A stretch of 25,740 nt of DNA. It comes from a virus. A program made the translations under genes and the position numbers. Positions 7,806 through 18,778 of the stretch are shown one piece after another (position 1 is the stretch's first letter; each line of letters begins with the position of its first letter). The stretch lies in IMG/VR virus record IMGVR_UViG_3300022934_000156, positions 1 through 25,740 of that record; one strand, written 5' to 3'. Under the pieces are notes generated by a model that saw only the letters and a list, made by a program, of their open reading frames with translations, searched no databases and was not told the DNA's origin.

Positions 7806-8025
7806 CGTTAATTGTCCCTCGCACTACAACCAAGGTGCGGTGGAATGTATTGACGCCATCAAAGCAAGCTTGACCCAAGAAGGGTTTCGGGCATATCTCA
7901 AGGCGTCTTCAATGAAATATCTTTGGCGCTATGAGCACAAAGGAAAACCGTTAGAGGATCTGAGGAAAGCAGAATGGTTTCTGGGACGTTTGATAGACGA
8001 ACTGGTACATGGTGGTTCGGAATAG
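7786..8025 (+). CDS. DUF3310 family protein
   Basis: 79 residues matching the DUF3310 pattern of phage proteins sometimes labelled 'nucleotide kinase' without proof: VNCPSHYNQGAVECIDAIK at the start, a central helix, MKYLWRYEHKGKPLEDLRKAEWF, then a final helix. The family is common in phages of many hosts next to replication and nucleotide genes; its biochemical role is not settled. Start ATG 7786 has a GGAGAG site upstream. Confidence 0.85.
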   Translation: MPEKSDNVNCPSHYNQGAVECIDAIKASLTQEGFRAYLKASSMKYLWRYEHKGKPLEDLRKAEWFLGRLIDELVHGGSE

Positions 8026-8168
8026 CTAACGAAGATGTAAAGATTGCCATACAGGCCGCGCATCAAAGCGCCGACCGCTTACAAAAGCCCATAGCCATTC
8101 AATCCGACCTGTCGGTTGTGCCCGCCGATCAAGCCACCAAAGAAGTGCTTGAAATCGTCCGACCGTAG
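7974..8168 (+). CDS. Small hypothetical protein at the operon end
   Basis: 64 residues; GAGGAAAG lies before ATG 7974, which is inside the DUF3310 gene in another frame (52-base overlap). The C-terminal part (IAIQAAHQSADRLQKPIAI, VVPADQATKEVLEIVRP) looks like an alpha/beta unit; the first 13 residues read through the neighbour and may not be part of the real protein. No known family. It is the last gene before the hairpin/terminator block. Confidence 0.5.
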   Translation: MVSGTFDRRTGTWWFGIANEDVKIAIQAAHQSADRLQKPIAIQSDLSVVPADQATKEVLEIVRP

Positions 8169-8293
8169 TGTTAATTTGAGGGCGTGACATGTTCTCATGC
8201 GTGTCACTCCTAAAACGTTTGATTAGGGTTAATGTTAGACTCCCAAAGTGAACATACTCCTAACCCGGCCCCGCGCAATGCGGGGCTTTTTTT
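8169..8293 (+). ncRNA. Candidate small RNA with anti-ribosome-binding-site loop
   Basis: No coding frame of note fits this gap. It folds as: stem GTGACA/TGTCAC (8184-8207), a long hairpin with outer arms GGGTTA/TAACCC (8226-8231 and 8261-8266) and inner arms ATGTT/AACAT (8232-8236 and 8251-8255), and a terminal intrinsic terminator. The 14-base loop (8237-8250) contains CTCCCAAAGT, the exact complement of the ACTTTGGGAG box before the genes at 11186, 14575, 15992 and 16351, and nine bases of that at 16824 and 17823. It could be a separate RNA or a processed 3' end of the replication operon. The pairings are seen; the RNA and its targets are inferred. Confidence 0.45.
8268..8293 (+). terminator. 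Strong intrinsic terminator of the replication operon
   Basis: GCCCCGC (8268-8274) pairs with GCGGGGC (8280-8286) around GCAAT, followed by seven T. It closes the long plus-strand operon and would also form the 3' end of the candidate small RNA. Confidence 0.9.
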
Positions 8294-11079: not shown

Positions 11080-11102
11080 ATAACCATATCGCATATGGTT
11101 AT
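11080..11102. repeat. Perfect inverted repeat ATAACCATAT-CGC-ATATGGTTAT
   Basis: Ten-base arms around CGC, directly downstream of the gene ending at 11073. No T-run follows, so it is not a standard terminator. The centre reads TATCGCATA, the reverse complement of the TATGCGATA box, so it may be an operator or a leftward promoter box. Confidence 0.7.
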
Positions 11103-11133: not shown

Positions 11134-11185
11134 TATGCGATATTCGGGAGTGTTCCACGTGGAACATCAACTTTGGGAGAACACC
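11134..11185 (+). promoter_or_regulatory. Leader cassette 1 with parS-like palindrome
   Basis: TATGCGATA (11134-11142), then the perfect 16-base palindrome TGTTCCACGTGGAACA (11151-11166), then ACTTTGGGAG (11170-11179) and ATG 11186. In the other cassettes the same slot holds a GC-rich hairpin, so here the palindrome may serve as leader hairpin TGTTCC/GGAACA. It also matches the form of ParB-binding parS sites. Confidence 0.65.
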
Positions 11186-11404
11186 ATGATTAGACATACA
11201 AAACTTTCCGTCGATGTGACAGATACATACACCAACGCGCTTTACAACAGGTATCGCGAATTACGAGAGGCGCTTCACCGGCTTGAACGTTTTAGACGAG
11301 GCGCTTCAGAATATGATCTTGAAATGCTGAAGGGTGAAGTTCAAACCGCAGTTGACTACATTTTAGAAACAGACCCGGAGTCCGGATTCTATGCTAACAA
11401 TTGA
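11186..11404 (+). CDS. Small helical hypothetical protein
   Basis: 72 residues, start fixed by the ACTTTGGGAG box. A predicted two-helix hairpin with many Arg, Glu and Leu (NALYNRYRELREALHRLERF, EMLKGEVQTAVDYILE). No known family. It is the first gene under a cassette-type leader. Confidence 0.65.
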   Translation: MIRHTKLSVDVTDTYTNALYNRYRELREALHRLERFRRGASEYDLEMLKGEVQTAVDYILETDPESGFYANN

Positions 11405-11858: not shown

Positions 11859-11882
11859 GCCGTGGGCCGTGGGCCGTGGGCC
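11859..11882 (+). repeat. Triple GCCGTGGG repeat
   Basis: Three head-to-tail copies of GCCGTGGG ending in GCC. At 11910-11936 the reverse-complement theme (CACGGGCCACG, then CACGGACCACGGG) follows, so the two parts could pair. The same theme recurs at 18516-18532 and inside several genes. Confidence 0.75.
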
Positions 11883-12036
11883 ATCAGCCCCATGTCGCGA
11901 GACAGCAGGCACGGGCCACGTATCACGGACCACGGGTCTTAATTTCGCTATCTATATAGTGTTTTCCCAGAGAAATAAAAAAATAAAAAATAAATTCTAA
12001 ATAGCCGTTACCGGCGTTACCGCGTTACCTTGCCCC

Positions 12037-14436: not shown

Positions 14437-14477
14437 GCGCTAGCACCTACGCCAAGCCGCCTTCGGGCGGCTTTTTT
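14432..14477 (+). terminator. Hairpin pair and intrinsic terminator
   Basis: CGTAGG/CCTACG (about 14432-14452) makes a first hairpin; AGCCGCC-TTCG-GGCGGCT (14455-14472) followed by six T is a textbook terminator with a stable TTCG loop. It separates the small-gene operon from the cassette array. Confidence 0.9.
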
Positions 14478-14522
14478 GTGCCCAAAGAAATTTTAAAAAG
14501 AGCATTGCAGGGCGGGGCGGTG

Positions 14523-14574
14523 TATGCGATAGTTCGGGTGCGGCAATCCTGCCGCATACTTTGGGAGATATACC
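14523..14574 (+). promoter_or_regulatory. Leader cassette 2
   Basis: TATGCGATA (14523-14531), GTTCGGG, hairpin TGCGGC-AATCCT-GCCGCA (14539-14556), ACTTTGGGAG (14558-14567), ATG 14575. All four elements occur in the same order and spacing as in the cassettes at 11.1, 15.9, 16.3, 16.8 and 17.8 kb. Confidence 0.75.
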
Positions 14575-15714
14575 ATGCAACATTCGATTGAAAATTCAGA
14601 CCACACCCTGACCCGCTTGCTTCAACAGGTGCAGGACCAAGCCGCCAGATCGCAGGACTTTCTGGCACCGACTAACCAGCTTCAACTTATGACCGGTGAT
14701 CGGGGTGACGGTAGCAAGGTCAGCCAGATTGTTTTGGAGCAATCAGGCGGGATGCCCACTCAGATCCTGACCGCTAATGATGTGGCGTTTGATCAGATCA
14801 GCCAGCGGGCCGGTATCGATGTCCGGACTGCCCGCCGCCTTCAGCAGGATTACTCCACCGAATTCGATGGACTGATCAATGCTATCTGGCAGAAAGAACC
14901 GGCGGTGCGAATGATCCGCACGTTTCAACACGCGACCCATGCCAATCTTGGGGAGGCGAGGGGCTTTCTGAGCGATAAGTTTAAGACCTTCGACAATGTT
15001 CATTTGTTGCAGTCGGCGTTGCCGGAACTGATGGATAGCGATGCCCAATGGCAAGTGGTGAACGGGACGGTGACTGATAAGCGCCTATACCTTCGCTTGA
15101 AATCAGCGGTCATCACCGGCGAGGGCGCGGCGGTTGGCGACATCATGGCGCTGGGAATTGGCATGAGTAACAGCGAAGTCGGTTGCGGTAGCGTGAACGT
15201 TTATCAAATGTTCTGGACGCTGGCCTGCCTTAACGGGATGCAGACCGAAAAGCGCCATCGCAAGTCGCACATCACCGGCGCGCGTGGCGATGCTGATACG
15301 TGGGGCCTGCTGACAGATGAAGCGAAGGATACGGACAATCACGCGCTGGCGCTTCAAATGCGGGATGTGACTAAGGCCTACGCTAGCCGCGAATCATTCG
15401 ATGAAGTGCTGGAAAAAATGAAAACAGCGCATCAAGACAAAGTCGAAGGTTCGCCGCAGTCAGCAGTAGAAGCCATGGGCAAAGTGCTGGCGTTAACTAA
15501 AAAGGATACTGCCAGCCTAATGGACGGCTTGCTCGCCACTATCGGGCAGGCGGGCTATGCCGGTCAGCCAGTAACCCGCGCTACCATGATTAACGCGGTC
15601 ACGGCGGTAGCGCATCAAGCGGACGCGGATAGCGTGGACGATTGGCAGAAACTGGGCGGGCGCGTTCTGGATCTGCCCCGTTCCGATTGGCAACGCGTGG
15701 CGATGGCGGCCTAA
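14575..15714 (+). CDS. DUF932 phage/plasmid-like protein
   Basis: 379 residues. The centre and C-terminus fit the DUF932 family of phages, plasmids and integrative elements: ARGFLSDKFKTFDN (128-141) near the middle, ALPELMD, then a beta-rich region with GIGMSNSEVGCGSVNVYQMFWTLACLNGM. Members often sit beside antirestriction or mobile-element genes; their biochemical role is not proven. It has its own leader cassette and is followed at once by a small gene, so both probably form a two-gene unit ended by the terminator at 15903. Confidence 0.85.
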   Translation: MQHSIENSDHTLTRLLQQVQDQAARSQDFLAPTNQLQLMTGDRGDGSKVSQIVLEQSGGMPTQILTANDVAFDQISQRAGIDVRTARRLQQDYSTEFDGLINAIWQKEPAVRMIRTFQHATHANLGEARGFLSDKFKTFDNVHLLQSALPELMDSDAQWQVVNGTVTDKRLYLRLKSAVITGEGAAVGDIMALGIGMSNSEVGCGSVNVYQMFWTLACLNGMQTEKRHRKSHITGARGDADTWGLLTDEAKDTDNHALALQMRDVTKAYASRESFDEVLEKMKTAHQDKVEGSPQSAVEAMGKVLALTKKDTASLMDGLLATIGQAGYAGQPVTRATMINAVTAVAHQADADSVDDWQKLGGRVLDLPRSDWQRVAMAA

Positions 15715-15715
15715 C

Positions 15716-15883
15716 GTGCCTGCCTATCGCGTGGAAGTAGTGCAGACCAATGTTTTCTATTTTGATGCAGATAGCCCCGAGGAAGCTCGCCAAATCGCTA
15801 CCGAGGATTTTATCTGGGATGAGGATCAGGATGCCCCTAACAGCTACGGCGTTCACTTCAACATTTTTGAGATAGAAAACTGA
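15716..15883 (+). CDS. DpnD/PcfM-like small protein
   Basis: 55 residues, GTG start one base after the DUF932 stop. The pattern YRVEVVQTNVFYFDADSPEEARQIA, then an acidic stretch and a final strand VHFNIFEIE, resembles the short DpnD/PcfM-type proteins (strand, 'D/A-S-xEEA' helix, strand) seen on phages and plasmids. Assignment is by pattern only. Role unknown. Confidence 0.6.
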   Translation: MPAYRVEVVQTNVFYFDADSPEEARQIATEDFIWDEDQDAPNSYGVHFNIFEIEN

Positions 15884-15886
15884 CTT

Positions 15887-15928
15887 ACACTCCCCAAAGT
15901 GTGCCCCGCTCCGGCGGGGCTTTTTTTT
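15887..15928 (+). terminator. Intrinsic terminator with preceding CCCCAA-loop hairpin
   Basis: GCCCCGC-TCCG-GCGGGGC (15903-15920) plus eight T is the terminator. Just before it ACACT-CCCCAA-AGTGT (15887-15902) forms a small hairpin whose sequence CCCCAAAGT is complementary to most of the ACTTTGGGAG box, much like the loop at 8240. Confidence 0.9.
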
Positions 15929-15938
15929 GCCCGAAAGC

Positions 15939-15991
15939 TATGCGATAGTCCGACTGCTGTAATGTTGCGGCGAAACTTTGGGAGAAATTAA
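15939..15991 (+). promoter_or_regulatory. Leader cassette 3
   Basis: TATGCGATA (15939-15947), GTCCGAC, hairpin GCTGT-AATGTT-GCGGC with two G-T pairs (15956-15971), ACTTTGGGAG (15975-15984), ATG 15992. Together with the terminator before it, it is nearly identical to 16273-16342. Confidence 0.75.
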
Positions 15992-16255
15992 ATGGCTAGA
16001 AAATGCAGTATTAATGATCCAGAAATACTTATAAGTAAAATCCGAACCGATGTCCCCATACCTAGAATAAACATTACTTCGGGGTTAGGTCGGGTAATTG
16101 ATTCAATGCCCGTAGGCGGGTGCGTGTATGGCGTCACAGTAAATCAAGCGAAAAGTTTGTGTGCGGCTTTGCATCGAGCGGGTTTTCGCGGGGTGCAACG
16201 CAGGCTCCCAGACGGTAAACAGTTTGCAGTGTGGAAAGCGGAAAAATCCAATTGA
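15992..16255 (+). CDS. Hypothetical protein with VGG..V and basic C-terminus
   Basis: 87 residues. A helix-rich start is followed by a compact region IDSMPVGGCVYGVTVNQAKSLCAALHRAGF and a basic tail (RGVQRRLPDGKQFAVWKA). The order 'strand with VGxxxxV, helix, basic strand ending in WK/WR' is seen in many small phage proteins of unknown role, some of which resemble nucleic-acid binders. Single-gene unit between a leader and a terminator. Confidence 0.65.
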   Translation: MARKCSINDPEILISKIRTDVPIPRINITSGLGRVIDSMPVGGCVYGVTVNQAKSLCAALHRAGFRGVQRRLPDGKQFAVWKAEKSN

Positions 16256-16261
16256 AATCAA

Positions 16262-16287
16262 GCCTCGCTTCGGCGGGGCTTTTTTTT
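16262..16287 (+). terminator. Intrinsic terminator
   Basis: GCCTCGC-TTCG-GCGGGGC (16262-16279, one T-G pair) with eight T. It ends the unit at 15992 and leads directly into the next leader. Confidence 0.9.
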
Positions 16288-16297
16288 GCCCGCAAGG

Positions 16298-16350
16298 TAT
16301 GCGATAGTCCGACTGCCGCAATGTCGCGGCTAACTTTGGGAGAATTTGTT
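16298..16350 (+). promoter_or_regulatory. Leader cassette 4
   Basis: TATGCGATA (16298-16306), GTCCGAC, hairpin GCCGC-AATGTC-GCGGC (16315-16330), ACTTTGGGAG (16333-16342), ATG 16351. Compared with cassette 3, the changes T-to-C and G-kept in the stem convert G-T pairs into G-C pairs, so the fold is kept while bases differ. Confidence 0.75.
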
Positions 16351-16719
16351 ATGGGAACTACAGTCACAATTGAAGATGTCGAATTGGATAGCGGATCCGT
16401 TTATTGCGACCGCGCATATGACATTGTCGAAATCATGAGTAACAGCGGCATCACGTTAGATGATGTGATTCATGAGGCGGTAAGCTCGGGATGGGAATCA
16501 CCGGAATTGGATTTTGATGCCATTGCCGATTGGATTCCGGCAGGCCATGCAACCGACACGCAACTGAGCGATTTGGCGTACCGCATCGCTCGCGAATTTG
16601 TGAGCCGTTTGGATAACGTCCGCCAGTGCGCGGATCGATACCTTGACACTACCCGCCAGCAGGCGGACCGCATCCGCGAATTGGACAGCCGCCTCGGGCC
16701 GGATGCCGCGACAGCGTAG
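16351..16719 (+). CDS. Acidic hypothetical protein with C-terminal helix
   Basis: 122 residues, start fixed by the leader box. The N-terminal part is acidic (TIEDVELDSGSVYCDRAYDIVEIM, DDVIHEAVSSGWESPELDFDAIADWI); the C-terminal third is a long charged helix (VSRLDNVRQCADRYLDTTRQ, then QADRIRELDSRLG). No family recognised. Single-gene unit. Confidence 0.65.
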   Translation: MGTTVTIEDVELDSGSVYCDRAYDIVEIMSNSGITLDDVIHEAVSSGWESPELDFDAIADWIPAGHATDTQLSDLAYRIAREFVSRLDNVRQCADRYLDTTRQQADRIRELDSRLGPDAATA

Positions 16720-16735
16720 GAAACCCCGCCCCAGT

Positions 16736-16762
16736 AGCCCGCCGAATGGCGGGCTTTTTTTT
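16736..16762 (+). terminator. Intrinsic terminator
   Basis: AGCCCGCC-GAAT-GGCGGGCT (16736-16755) with eight T in all. Ends the unit at 16351. Confidence 0.9.
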
Positions 16763-16770
16763 GCCTAGCG

Positions 16771-16823
16771 TATGCGATACCCTGAGCGGGCCGCGATTGG
16801 CGGCGACACTTTGGGAAACTGAT
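16771..16823 (+). promoter_or_regulatory. Leader cassette 5
   Basis: TATGCGATA (16771-16779), CCCTGAGCG, hairpin GCCGC-GATTG-GCGGC (16790-16804), CACTTTGGGA (16807-16816), ATG 16824. Confidence 0.75.
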
Positions 16824-17534
16824 ATGCAACTACTCGATACGCGGGGCGCAAACCCCAAATTGAAAAAAACGGCGGAGCTGGGGAACGTGTTCGGCTCATT
16901 TCGTTACGCGGGCCTATCGCTTTATCCTGACGCGGAATTGTGCCCCGCATCTAAGGCGGCGGGGTGCGCTGATACTTGTTTGGCCGATCAAGGGCGCGGG
17001 CGGTTTGATAACGTGCGCGAAGCGCGACAGCGGAAGGCGGCATTTTTTCGCGAGGATCGCGCGGCTTTTCTTGATCAACTCCACCGCGAGCTATCCAATT
17101 TCGGAAAGCTTTGCGAGCGCGAGGGGCGGCTGGGTGTAGTACGGCTAAATGTTCTGTCCGATGTCCGTTGGGAAATGCTCGGCATACCCCAAGCGCATCC
17201 GAATCTTTTTATGCTGGACTATACAAAGCGGGCGGATCGGCTCTGTAAAACCCCCGATAACTATCGGCTGATTTTCAGTTACAGCGGGCGGCCCCAGTAT
17301 CGCCGCCAAAATGAAAAAGCATTGGCGACACTGTTACCGATTGCGGTTGTATTTCGCGGCGGCTTGCCCGCTAAGTTTCTCGGGCGGCGCGTGATAGACG
17401 GGGACCGCTCCGATTATTTGAACGCAACCGAGGGCACTGGGTGCATTGTCGGATTAACCGCCAAGGGTAGCGCGCGGCGGGATCGCACCGGCTTTGTGAT
17501 CGATAACCCCGACTTGATCGGGTGCGCGTCATGA
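16824..17534 (+). CDS. GP88-like phage protein with conserved Cys cluster
   Basis: 236 residues. The start NPKLKKTAELGNVFGSFRYAG, LSLYPDAELCPASKAAGCADTCLADQGRG and then an R/F-rich stretch with FFREDRAAFLDQL resemble phage proteins usually labelled 'gene product 88' (GP88) or simply hypothetical, which share CP-x-(4,5)-GC-x3-C followed by GRG. The Cys group (Cys42, Cys48 or so, Cys52) could bind a metal or iron-sulfur site. Function unknown. Base composition here is visibly richer in G and C than in the replication operon. Its stop is coupled to the next gene (ATGA). Confidence 0.65.
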   Translation: MQLLDTRGANPKLKKTAELGNVFGSFRYAGLSLYPDAELCPASKAAGCADTCLADQGRGRFDNVREARQRKAAFFREDRAAFLDQLHRELSNFGKLCEREGRLGVVRLNVLSDVRWEMLGIPQAHPNLFMLDYTKRADRLCKTPDNYRLIFSYSGRPQYRRQNEKALATLLPIAVVFRGGLPAKFLGRRVIDGDRSDYLNATEGTGCIVGLTAKGSARRDRTGFVIDNPDLIGCAS

Positions 17535-17728
17535 CTAAGCGGGATCAGTGGCGAGTGAAGGCGGCGCGTTATTTGCGTTGGCATCGGGCGGCCCGCAAAG
17601 CTCCGCTAAACGATTGGGAAAGTAGCGGCGCGTGGCTCCGGATGTATCGCGAGGCGCGGCAGTATGCCGACTACTGGCAACGCCACGGGGAGCAAGCCCG
17701 CGCCCCCAGTTGGTACTATCCCGACTGA
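17531..17728 (+). CDS. Trp-rich basic small protein
   Basis: 65 residues, start at the ATGA overlap with the GP88-like gene. Six Trp and many Arg/Lys (DQWRVKAARYLRWHRAARKA, WLRMYREARQYADYWQRHG) make two or three amphipathic basic helices. It may bind nucleic acid or its coupled neighbour. No family recognised. Confidence 0.6.
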   Translation: MTKRDQWRVKAARYLRWHRAARKAPLNDWESSGAWLRMYREARQYADYWQRHGEQARAPSWYYPD

Positions 17729-17734
17729 AACCAG

Positions 17735-17759
17735 ACCCCGCCACGGCGGGGTTTTTTTT
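17735..17759 (+). terminator. Intrinsic terminator
   Basis: ACCCCGCC-AC-GGCGGGGT (17735-17752) followed by eight T in all. Closes the GP88-like two-gene unit. Confidence 0.9.
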
Positions 17760-17767
17760 GGGCCGCG

Positions 17768-17822
17768 TATGCGATACCCTCGGCGGGCCGCAATGTCGCG
17801 GTGACACTTTGGGAATGTGATT
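17768..17822 (+). promoter_or_regulatory. Leader cassette 6
   Basis: TATGCGATA (17768-17776), CCCTCGGCG, hairpin GCCGC-AATGTC-GCGGT (17787-17802), CACTTTGGGA (17805-17814), ATG 17823. Very close to cassette 5 upstream of the hairpin and to cassette 4 in the hairpin loop. Confidence 0.75.
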
Positions 17823-18242
17823 ATGACAATCGAGTATGTAGTGGTAGCGGATAATCATTGCTGGGGCGCGGGCAAGTCTCTTCGCAAAGCTTTGAGCAAT
17901 GCTCACTTGCGCGAGGATACGCGCCTTTCTTTTTTTGATTGGATTGTTGATGCGGCGGAACTGCGCGAACGGTGGGACAGTTGGTGCAAATGGGGGCGCG
18001 AGGATTGGCGTCACGCGGGCGAGGATGCCAAACCAGTGCAGTGCATGATTTACCCGCTGGATCGTGAGCAGTGGGCATCATGGCGCGTTTGCGACATTAC
18101 CGGCGGGCTATCCGCTACCCCCAGCGACGAGAGCGTGACGGGCCGCGAGGCGTCCGCCCGCCTTCGGGACCTAGTGATCCACGCCGAATGGTGCAACGGT
18201 GAACTGCGGCCCGTGAGCGATCCCGAGGCGTCCGCCCAGTAG
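17823..18242 (+). CDS. Hypothetical protein of the last cassette
   Basis: 139 residues from ATG 17823 (a GTG two codons upstream is too close to the ribosome-binding box). N-terminal strand-helix (TIEYVVVADNHCWGAGKSLRKALSNA), a Trp-rich middle (FFDWIVDAAELRERWDSWCKWGREDW), then YPLDREQWASWRVCDITGG and a charged tail. No family recognised. High G+C, like its neighbour units. Confidence 0.65.
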   Translation: MTIEYVVVADNHCWGAGKSLRKALSNAHLREDTRLSFFDWIVDAAELRERWDSWCKWGREDWRHAGEDAKPVQCMIYPLDREQWASWRVCDITGGLSATPSDESVTGREASARLRDLVIHAEWCNGELRPVSDPEASAQ

Positions 18243-18261
18243 CGCCCGCCGCCGATCCGAT

Positions 18262-18285
18262 AGCCCGCCCCGAGCGGGCTTTTTT
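18262..18285 (+). terminator. Intrinsic terminator of the last cassette
   Basis: AGCCCGC-CCCGA-GCGGGCT (18262-18280) followed by six T in all. Ends the transcription unit at 17823. Confidence 0.9.
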
Positions 18286-18388: not shown

Positions 18389-18778
18389 CGAGCGATTCGC
18401 GGGAGAGCGCCAAAAAAAGCCCTCTAGAATTCACTTTAACTCGCAACCGTAACACGTGGCGCGGGGGCCGCGCCCCGAGAGCCGCCCGAAACGTACCGCG
18501 CCCCCTGCCGCCGGTCCCGTGGGCCGTGGGCCGCCGCCCCAGCGGCGCGGGCCGCGTGTCTAACTGCCTTAAATGTATGTTTACGTCAGTTGACCGGCGC
18601 GGGGGTCCCGTGGGACCCAGTCGCGGAGCGCGTCACCGCCGCCGCAGACCGCCGCCCGTGGCAAAAAATCGCGAAAAATCGCCCCCGCCTGAGCGAGCGG
18701 CTACATGTGCCATGTTTTTCACAAACAGTACTGAGATAAAACGATACGAGTTTGAAAAAACCCGTAAGTGGGAAGAAA

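Follow-up and report, generated by a model that had tools for sequence, protein, structure and literature searches.

The 25,740-base virus record IMGVR_UViG_3300022934_000156, analysed here over its whole length (the window), belongs to a family of aquatic phages and carries a tandem array of small genes behind one shared leader, which consists of a box TATGCGATA, a hairpin and a ribosome-binding site (RBS), (C)ACTTTGGGAG. Two conserved elements in the same genome mirror this RBS, a feature that the preliminary description of the array had not noticed. We propose that the genes recombine within the repeated terminator-leader stretch and that two antisense RNAs derived from 3′ untranslated regions (3′UTRs) probably repress all cassettes at translation. 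Comparison of related sequences demonstrates the shared leader, the exchange of genes behind it, the complementarity, a predicted RNA structure and the concerted change of site and anti-elements. We also lean, less firmly, towards a view in which the shared RBS would serve as an address, the two RNAs from other 3′UTRs would act on it in trans, and address and antisense sequences would co-evolve and differ between lineages.

A shared leader before exchangeable genes

Six exact copies of TATGCGATA-N26-29-ACTTTGGGA were found on the + strand of the window, each followed by a start codon 6–11 nucleotides (nt) downstream; the reversed pattern, used as a control, gave 0 matches. With at most one mismatch, TATGCGATA was found 10 times against 4.1 expected, and 10 or more copies appeared in only 2 of 100 shuffles. 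Five leaders, with exact boxes at 14523, 15939, 16298, 16771 and 17768, form a tandem array (14523–18242) in which an intrinsic terminator ends each unit. The preliminary description had this recurrent order right but counted five leaders, missing the one outside the array at 11134–11178. The Shine–Dalgarno (SD) sequence is GGGAG in four of the six leaders and GGGAA in two. The claimed terminators were recovered, six of them bracketing the units, and the terminator-leader stretches at 15914 and 16273, described as nearly identical, indeed differ by few changes across 71 aligned positions. The features of the array and of the sixth leader are as follows.

11134–11178, + strand: sixth shared leader (box, GTTCCACGTGGAAC hairpin, ACTTTGGGA) before gene 11186–11404, from the pattern scan
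14454–14473, + strand: intrinsic terminator preceding cassette 1, from terminator prediction
14505–14533, + strand: putative cassette 1 promoter, TTGCAG (14505–14510), 17 nt and the extended −10 TATGC-GATAGT, from the sequence and homology to the TATAAT of lake phage DSL-LC04
14523–14567, + strand: leader 1, TATGCGATA, hairpin GCGGCAATCCTGCCGC (14540–14555) and RBS ACTTTGGGAG (14558–14567), from the sequence, pattern scan and hairpin alignment
14575–15714, + strand: cassette 1 gene, DUF932-like (PHROG_1362), from a family match
15716–15883, + strand: small open reading frame (ORF) between the DUF932-like gene and its 3′UTR element, absent in relative L007 on comparison
15903–15920, + strand: cassette 1 terminator
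15939–16255, + strand: cassette 2, box 15939–15947, RBS 15975–15984 and gene 15992–16255 (no family); the whole unit is absent in L007
16260–16281, + strand: cassette 2 terminator
16298–16719, + strand: cassette 3, box 16298–16306, RBS 16333–16342 and gene 16351–16719 (no family)
16736–16755, + strand: cassette 3 terminator
16771–17728, + strand: cassette 4, box 16771–16779, RBS 16808–16816, GP88-family gene 16824–17534 and ORF 17531–17728
17733–17754, + strand: cassette 4 terminator
17768–18242, + strand: cassette 5, box 17768–17776, RBS 17806–17814 and gene 17823–18242 (no family)
18262–18280, + strand: cassette 5 terminator

The five leading array genes share no Pfam or PHROG family, in agreement with the earlier statement that the enclosed genes are unrelated, and only two of them, the DUF932-like gene at 14575 and the GP88 gene at 16824, matched any family. 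GC-rich, low-complexity, non-coding 'gccgtgggcc' repeats flank the array (window 11860–11930 and 18430–18560; 14500–14990 in L088) and also stand upstream of terL in DSL-LC04.

Recurrence of the leader before unrelated genes had been set beforehand as the check on the cassette idea. An exact-pattern scan of IMG/VR returned 78 stretches with the leader pattern, many with 2–7 copies; once chance singletons were removed, about 70 virus contigs carried real leaders, before about 20 unrelated gene families. A tightened pattern gave 3 single-copy matches in 257 Gb of bacterial and archaeal genomes, in unrelated phyla, where about 4 are expected by our own estimate, so that these matches are at about chance level. 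Because the leader recurs in IMG/VR and its matches in cellular genomes stay at chance level, we regard it as viral. A search for the host through prophages returned only the same three chance matches in prokaryote contigs, and no near DNA match to the window was found among named phages. Terminase comparison relates the window phage, at 54–62% identity, to the Pelagibacter phages HTVC027P and HTVC023P, to 023Pt_psg01 and to DSL-LC04; the DNA polymerase of the window phage is of family A. Separately controlled genes lie between terS and terL in DSL-LC04 and HTVC023P too, but behind other start motifs (CATACAGGAG and ACTAACAAAGGAG). The same terS-array-terL layout is seen in HTVC023P (L180, 2300–7260), whose array has TTGAC-type promoters, and in its relatives L145 and L154, with their own start motifs ACTAACAAAGGAG and AACAAAGGAG.

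The 186 leader-gene instances fall into 24 first-gene clusters, or about 20 once truncated ends are allowed for. Each main leader type precedes 2–7 unrelated gene families, and six families stand behind at least two leader types. Relative to L007, the window shows two clean insertions: ORF 15716–15883, placed between the stop codon of the DUF932-like gene and its 3′UTR, and one complete terminator-leader-gene unit (gene 15992), whose breakpoints fall inside the repeated terminator. Since cassettes are cleanly present or absent and the breakpoints lie within the repeated terminator-leader, the idea that the regulatory unit is itself the recombination handle is supported, as is a shared regulatory unit with exchangeable genes. 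The claim of a phage-specific system that swaps genes without losing their control likewise agrees with the viral recurrence and the 186 instances.

Two elements complementary to the shared ribosome-binding site

CCCAAAGT occurs only twice on the + strand of the window, both times no more than 45 nt before one of its 7 terminators, where 0.004 occurrences are expected. Both anti-elements contain CCCAAAGTG, which is reverse-complementary to the shared RBS.

7974–8168, + strand: small gene (64 amino acids, no family; a Pfam search gave no match) directly upstream of candidate antisense RNA 1, conserved in 80 loci
8215–8293, + strand: candidate antisense RNA 1, outer stem GGGTTA/TAACCC, inner stem ATGTT/AACAT, loop CTCCCAAAGTG (8240–8250) and terminator 8267–8287, from conservation and structure
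15887–15902, + strand: anti-RBS element 2, ACACTCCCCAAAGTGT (CCCAAAGTG at 15893–15901), conserved, directly before terminator 15903–15920

Candidate antisense RNA 1 is conserved and structured in 15 aligned relatives (RNAalifold). When relatives were collected through the upstream gene, independently of the motif, the loop was present in 42 of 46 distinct 3′UTRs; the other four lie on contigs with no detected homolog of terL, terS, DUF932 or GP88 and no shared RBS. More generally, contigs that have the upstream gene and lack the array show neither loop nor shared site. In L251–L253, L255 and L257, which belong to this class, the gene is followed by a different conserved, structured 3′UTR (GGCGAGCCGTGGCGTCAAAAGATTTGATG...). 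Compensatory changes in both stems surround the near-invariant loop: outer-stem variants include GGGTTA/TAACCC, GGGTTC/GAACCC, GGATTC/GAATCC, GGGATC/GATCCC and others, and inner-stem variants ATGTT/AACAT, GTTT/GAAC, AAACTT/GAGTTT, AGAC/GTCT and AAATACG/TGTATTT. The loop CTCCCAAAGTG is complementary to the shared RBS CACTTTGGGAG and changes together with it. Many contigs retain element 2 behind their DUF932-like cassette.

Co-change was found in a sub-lineage (L240, L242–L246) whose terL and DUF932-like protein are 95% and 92% identical, respectively, to those of the window. Here all cassette leaders examined, 4–9 per region, read CTTTGGAG, one G shorter than in the window, and both anti-elements have lost one C: the loop reads CTCC-AAAGTG and the DUF932 3′UTR element CTCCAAAGT. 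In a census by strain group, the GGG side (29 groups) comprised 139 leaders, 49 CCC elements and 2 CC elements, and the GG side (6 groups) 30 leaders, no CCC element and 9 CC elements. One of the two CC elements in GGG groups is a chance coding match; the other is the loop TTTTCCAAAGTG of L043/L259, whose pairing with its own ACTTTGGGAGG is kept through G-U. The DSL-LC04 lineage shows a third form: its shared site reads CATACAGGAG, and CCTGTATG(G) stands in the 3′UTR directly before a terminator in four contigs; a fifth, L110, has a shorter CTGTATG. The comparison across lineages shows that the complementarity is kept by concerted changes, and pairing of the anti-elements with the shared RBS is well supported at the level of sequence.

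Leader/anti-element duplex energies were better than those of shuffles for most pairs. Because GC-rich stems inflate them, our argument rests on co-change and not on energies. A covariance model of antisense RNA 1 detected its GG-lineage counterpart (E about 1e-12) and gave no match in the DSL lineage; a DNA search in distant mode with the stretch encoding this RNA returned only a 25-nt chance match, and a search of Rfam 15 with the anti-elements gave no family above the gathering score.

Could ACTTTGGGAG merely be a strong RBS copied along with its cassettes, and the complementary 3′UTR pieces incidental parts of terminators? Recombination does spread shared leaders with cassettes, and the motif partly coincides with an ordinary SD. 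Against this stand the two elements before window terminators where 0.004 are expected, the near-invariance of the loop in 42 of 46 independently retrieved 3′UTRs, and a GGG/CCC versus GG/CC segregation that is perfect save for one wobble-compatible and one chance coding match; we disfavour this explanation as hardly credible. A second possibility is that a phage or host protein recognises ACTTTGG(G)AG in double-stranded DNA, and that both orientations shifted with the specificity of that protein. A single DNA-binding specificity would also produce concerted change, and the doubled palindromic TATGCGATA boxes described below suggest DNA-binding proteins nearby. However, one orientation of the motif coincides precisely with the SD, and the other occupies the loop of a covarying RNA hairpin; the G-U pairs that keep L043/L259 compatible are relevant to RNA alone; and no HTH_3 regulator was matched in four near-complete relatives. 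A DNA site therefore appears quite improbable.

The anti-elements might act only in cis, pairing with the RBS of the next cassette on read-through transcripts, as insulation, or with the RBS of their own mRNA, as in icaR. Element 2 lies 75–85 nt upstream of the RBS of the next cassette, the DSL-LC04 anti-element likewise precedes a cassette, and 5′/3′UTR pairing at an SD is known (PMC3868564). By contrast, no shared RBS precedes the gene downstream of antisense RNA 1, and this RNA belongs to a transcription unit separate from the array. Insulation would need one anti-element per terminator, yet the remaining cassette terminators of the window have none, and in DSL-LC04 the next RBS is the mismatched one (ACATACTGGAG). 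We consider action in cis only to be rather unlikely.

Promoter assignment and proposed mechanism

The preliminary description took TATGCGATA for a promoter box, perhaps of a phage-modified RNA polymerase. The first part agrees with our data, and we read the box as likely being the extended −10 element (TRTGn) of a host-type sigma-70 promoter. A gapless alignment of the leaders before the DUF932-like gene pairs TATAATTCACGGGCGGGAATCCTCCCGC of DSL-LC04 with GATAGTTCGGGTGCGGCAATCCTGCCGC of the window and places TATGCGATAGT opposite TATAAT. TTGCAG lies 17 nt upstream of this −10, and other copies have TTGACA, TTGACC or TTGCAA at the same distance. The gapless TATAAT homology and the TTG-type −35s at 17 nt make a sigma-70 extended −10 the likelier assignment. 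The −10 hexamers of the GG sub-lineage are GATAGT, GACACT, GAGAGT and GAAAGT (general form GAnAnT) as well as TATAGT, seen as TTGCAA-17-TATAGT. Of the extended −10 features (TRTGn, A at −11, T at −7), TATG and the A are present, and the −7 T is found in 64 of 122 distinct GGG-lineage leaders.

The frequent absence of that T, and a nine-base box far better conserved than its flanks, would fit the promoter of a phage-encoded or phage-modified polymerase. The alignment with TATAAT and the −35 spacing speak against this. In addition, no single-subunit RNA polymerase was matched in the window, four near-complete relatives or DSL-LC04, in a search whose control genomes also gave none for this family, and no sigma region 4 was matched in the near-complete relatives. 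We regard a phage polymerase as very improbable, and this part of the earlier proposal is not upheld.

In L011, L019, L022, L030, L045, L067 and L077, TATGCGATA boxes form palindromes, with TATCGCATA adjoining or overlapping TATGCGATA; a palindromic box, AACCATATCGCATATGGTT, also lies at 11080–11102 of the window. A further leader class, in L015, L016, L020, L022, L043, L047, L056, L066 and L067, combines the TATGCGATA promoter with an rRNA-type boxA (GCTCTTTAACA) before ACTTTGGGAG, which suggests NusB-type antitermination of a phage operon.

In the consensus hairpin between box and RBS, all five pairs show double-sided changes that keep pairing, in an alignment that included one non-leader row (L029:72–116). 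The hairpin of the 11134 leader (11152–11167) is the 16-bp TGTTCCACGTGGAACA and has the same sequence as a ParB parS-type palindrome. In relatives the stem is retained but the parS core is broken, and it is probably just a hairpin.

In the model that we propose, the array consists mostly of one-gene transcription units. Each would start from a sigma-70-type extended −10 promoter (TATGC-GATA) and carry a predicted hairpin close to the 5′ end of its transcript, the RBS (C)ACTTTGGGAG, one or two small genes and an intrinsic terminator. Genes are gained, lost and swapped by recombination in the repeated terminator-leader. Both 3′UTR elements would be released as, or kept within, antisense RNAs. 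Because no promoter of its own is seen, antisense RNA 1 would need processing and is probably cut from the 3′UTR of the preceding genes. These RNAs would bind the shared site and block ribosomes, so that one signal, rising with transcription of the upstream genes, may turn all cassettes down together. Any new gene arriving behind the leader would automatically be covered.

Several observations weigh against this model. No promoter adjoining antisense RNA 1 is evident, and element 2, just upstream of the leader of the next cassette, could act in cis. Duplex energies are not better than shuffles for all pairs and are partly inflated by the GC-rich stems, and two contigs carry GGG and GG leaders mixed. 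No anti-elements were found before terminators in HTVC023P (RBS ACTAACAAAGGAG), HTVC027P or 023Pt_psg01. As regards the promoter, the −7 T is missing from many leaders, and the doubled palindromic box hints at a DNA-binding, dimeric protein as well. In L145/L154 (RBS AACAAAGGAG), CTCCTTTG was considered as an anti-element and set aside as too near the generic anti-SD to count.

The model addresses the open question of how a phage controls newly acquired accessory genes without one regulator per gene; if true, giving many genes one RBS address and a cognate antisense RNA would solve it in a simple and general way. Concerted change at about 10 sites between phages with 95% identical terminases presents a testable evolutionary puzzle. 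The analysis also provides a computational recipe for other phages: search for a shared start motif, then for its reverse complement before terminators.

Relation to known regulatory systems

As far as the literature examined goes, which for the first of these systems means a citing paper, the combination of a shared RBS with matching antisense elements is described for none of the PeSL, SAS/ESAS and c4/sar systems. PeSLs are the promoter-early stem-loop mobile regulatory cassettes of T4-type phages (Arbiol 2010 and Comeau 2014, as described in PMC4503421). As here, a repeated promoter and stem-loop motif lies between unrelated small genes, and shuffling by homologous recombination has been proposed, so that promoter-terminator motifs were already known as recombination handles (PMC4503421). 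The window shares with them a host-like promoter with a repeated stem-loop (a terminator and an extended −10 precede each unit, the sigma-70 assignment being ours) and different genes behind the motif in related phages. It differs in its carrier, which has a family A DNA polymerase and a terminase nearest those of DSL-LC04, 023Pt_psg01 and HTVC027P and is not a T4-type myovirus, and in a motif that runs through the 5′ hairpin into the shared RBS. In the literature examined, anti-RBS RNAs of this kind are not reported for PeSLs.

The SAS/ESAS motifs of cluster K mycobacteriophages likewise overlap the SD just before unrelated non-structural genes, often with an inverted repeat upstream and with a consensus that varies by subcluster (PMC3203893, PMC12699233). 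A conserved RBS motif before genes of different families is found here too, but it is ACTTTGGGAG and not the 13-bp SAS/ESAS consensus GGGATAGGAGCCC; the inverted repeats there do not covary as an RNA hairpin in the view of their authors, and no complementary RNA is described. The icaR mRNA of S. aureus has a C-rich 3′UTR motif complementary to its SD (PMC3868564). That system concerns a single gene in cis, whereas here a phage regulon would be involved, and at least one of the elements belongs to a separate transcription unit. In c4 RNA of P1/P7 and sar RNA of P22, a phage RNA pairs around the RBS of a phage gene, and the complementary sequences of c4 probably lie in loops (review PMC12197685), as does the complement in antisense RNA 1. 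Those RNAs target one antirepressor mRNA; here the complement fits the shared RBS of every cassette and stands in two copies before terminators.

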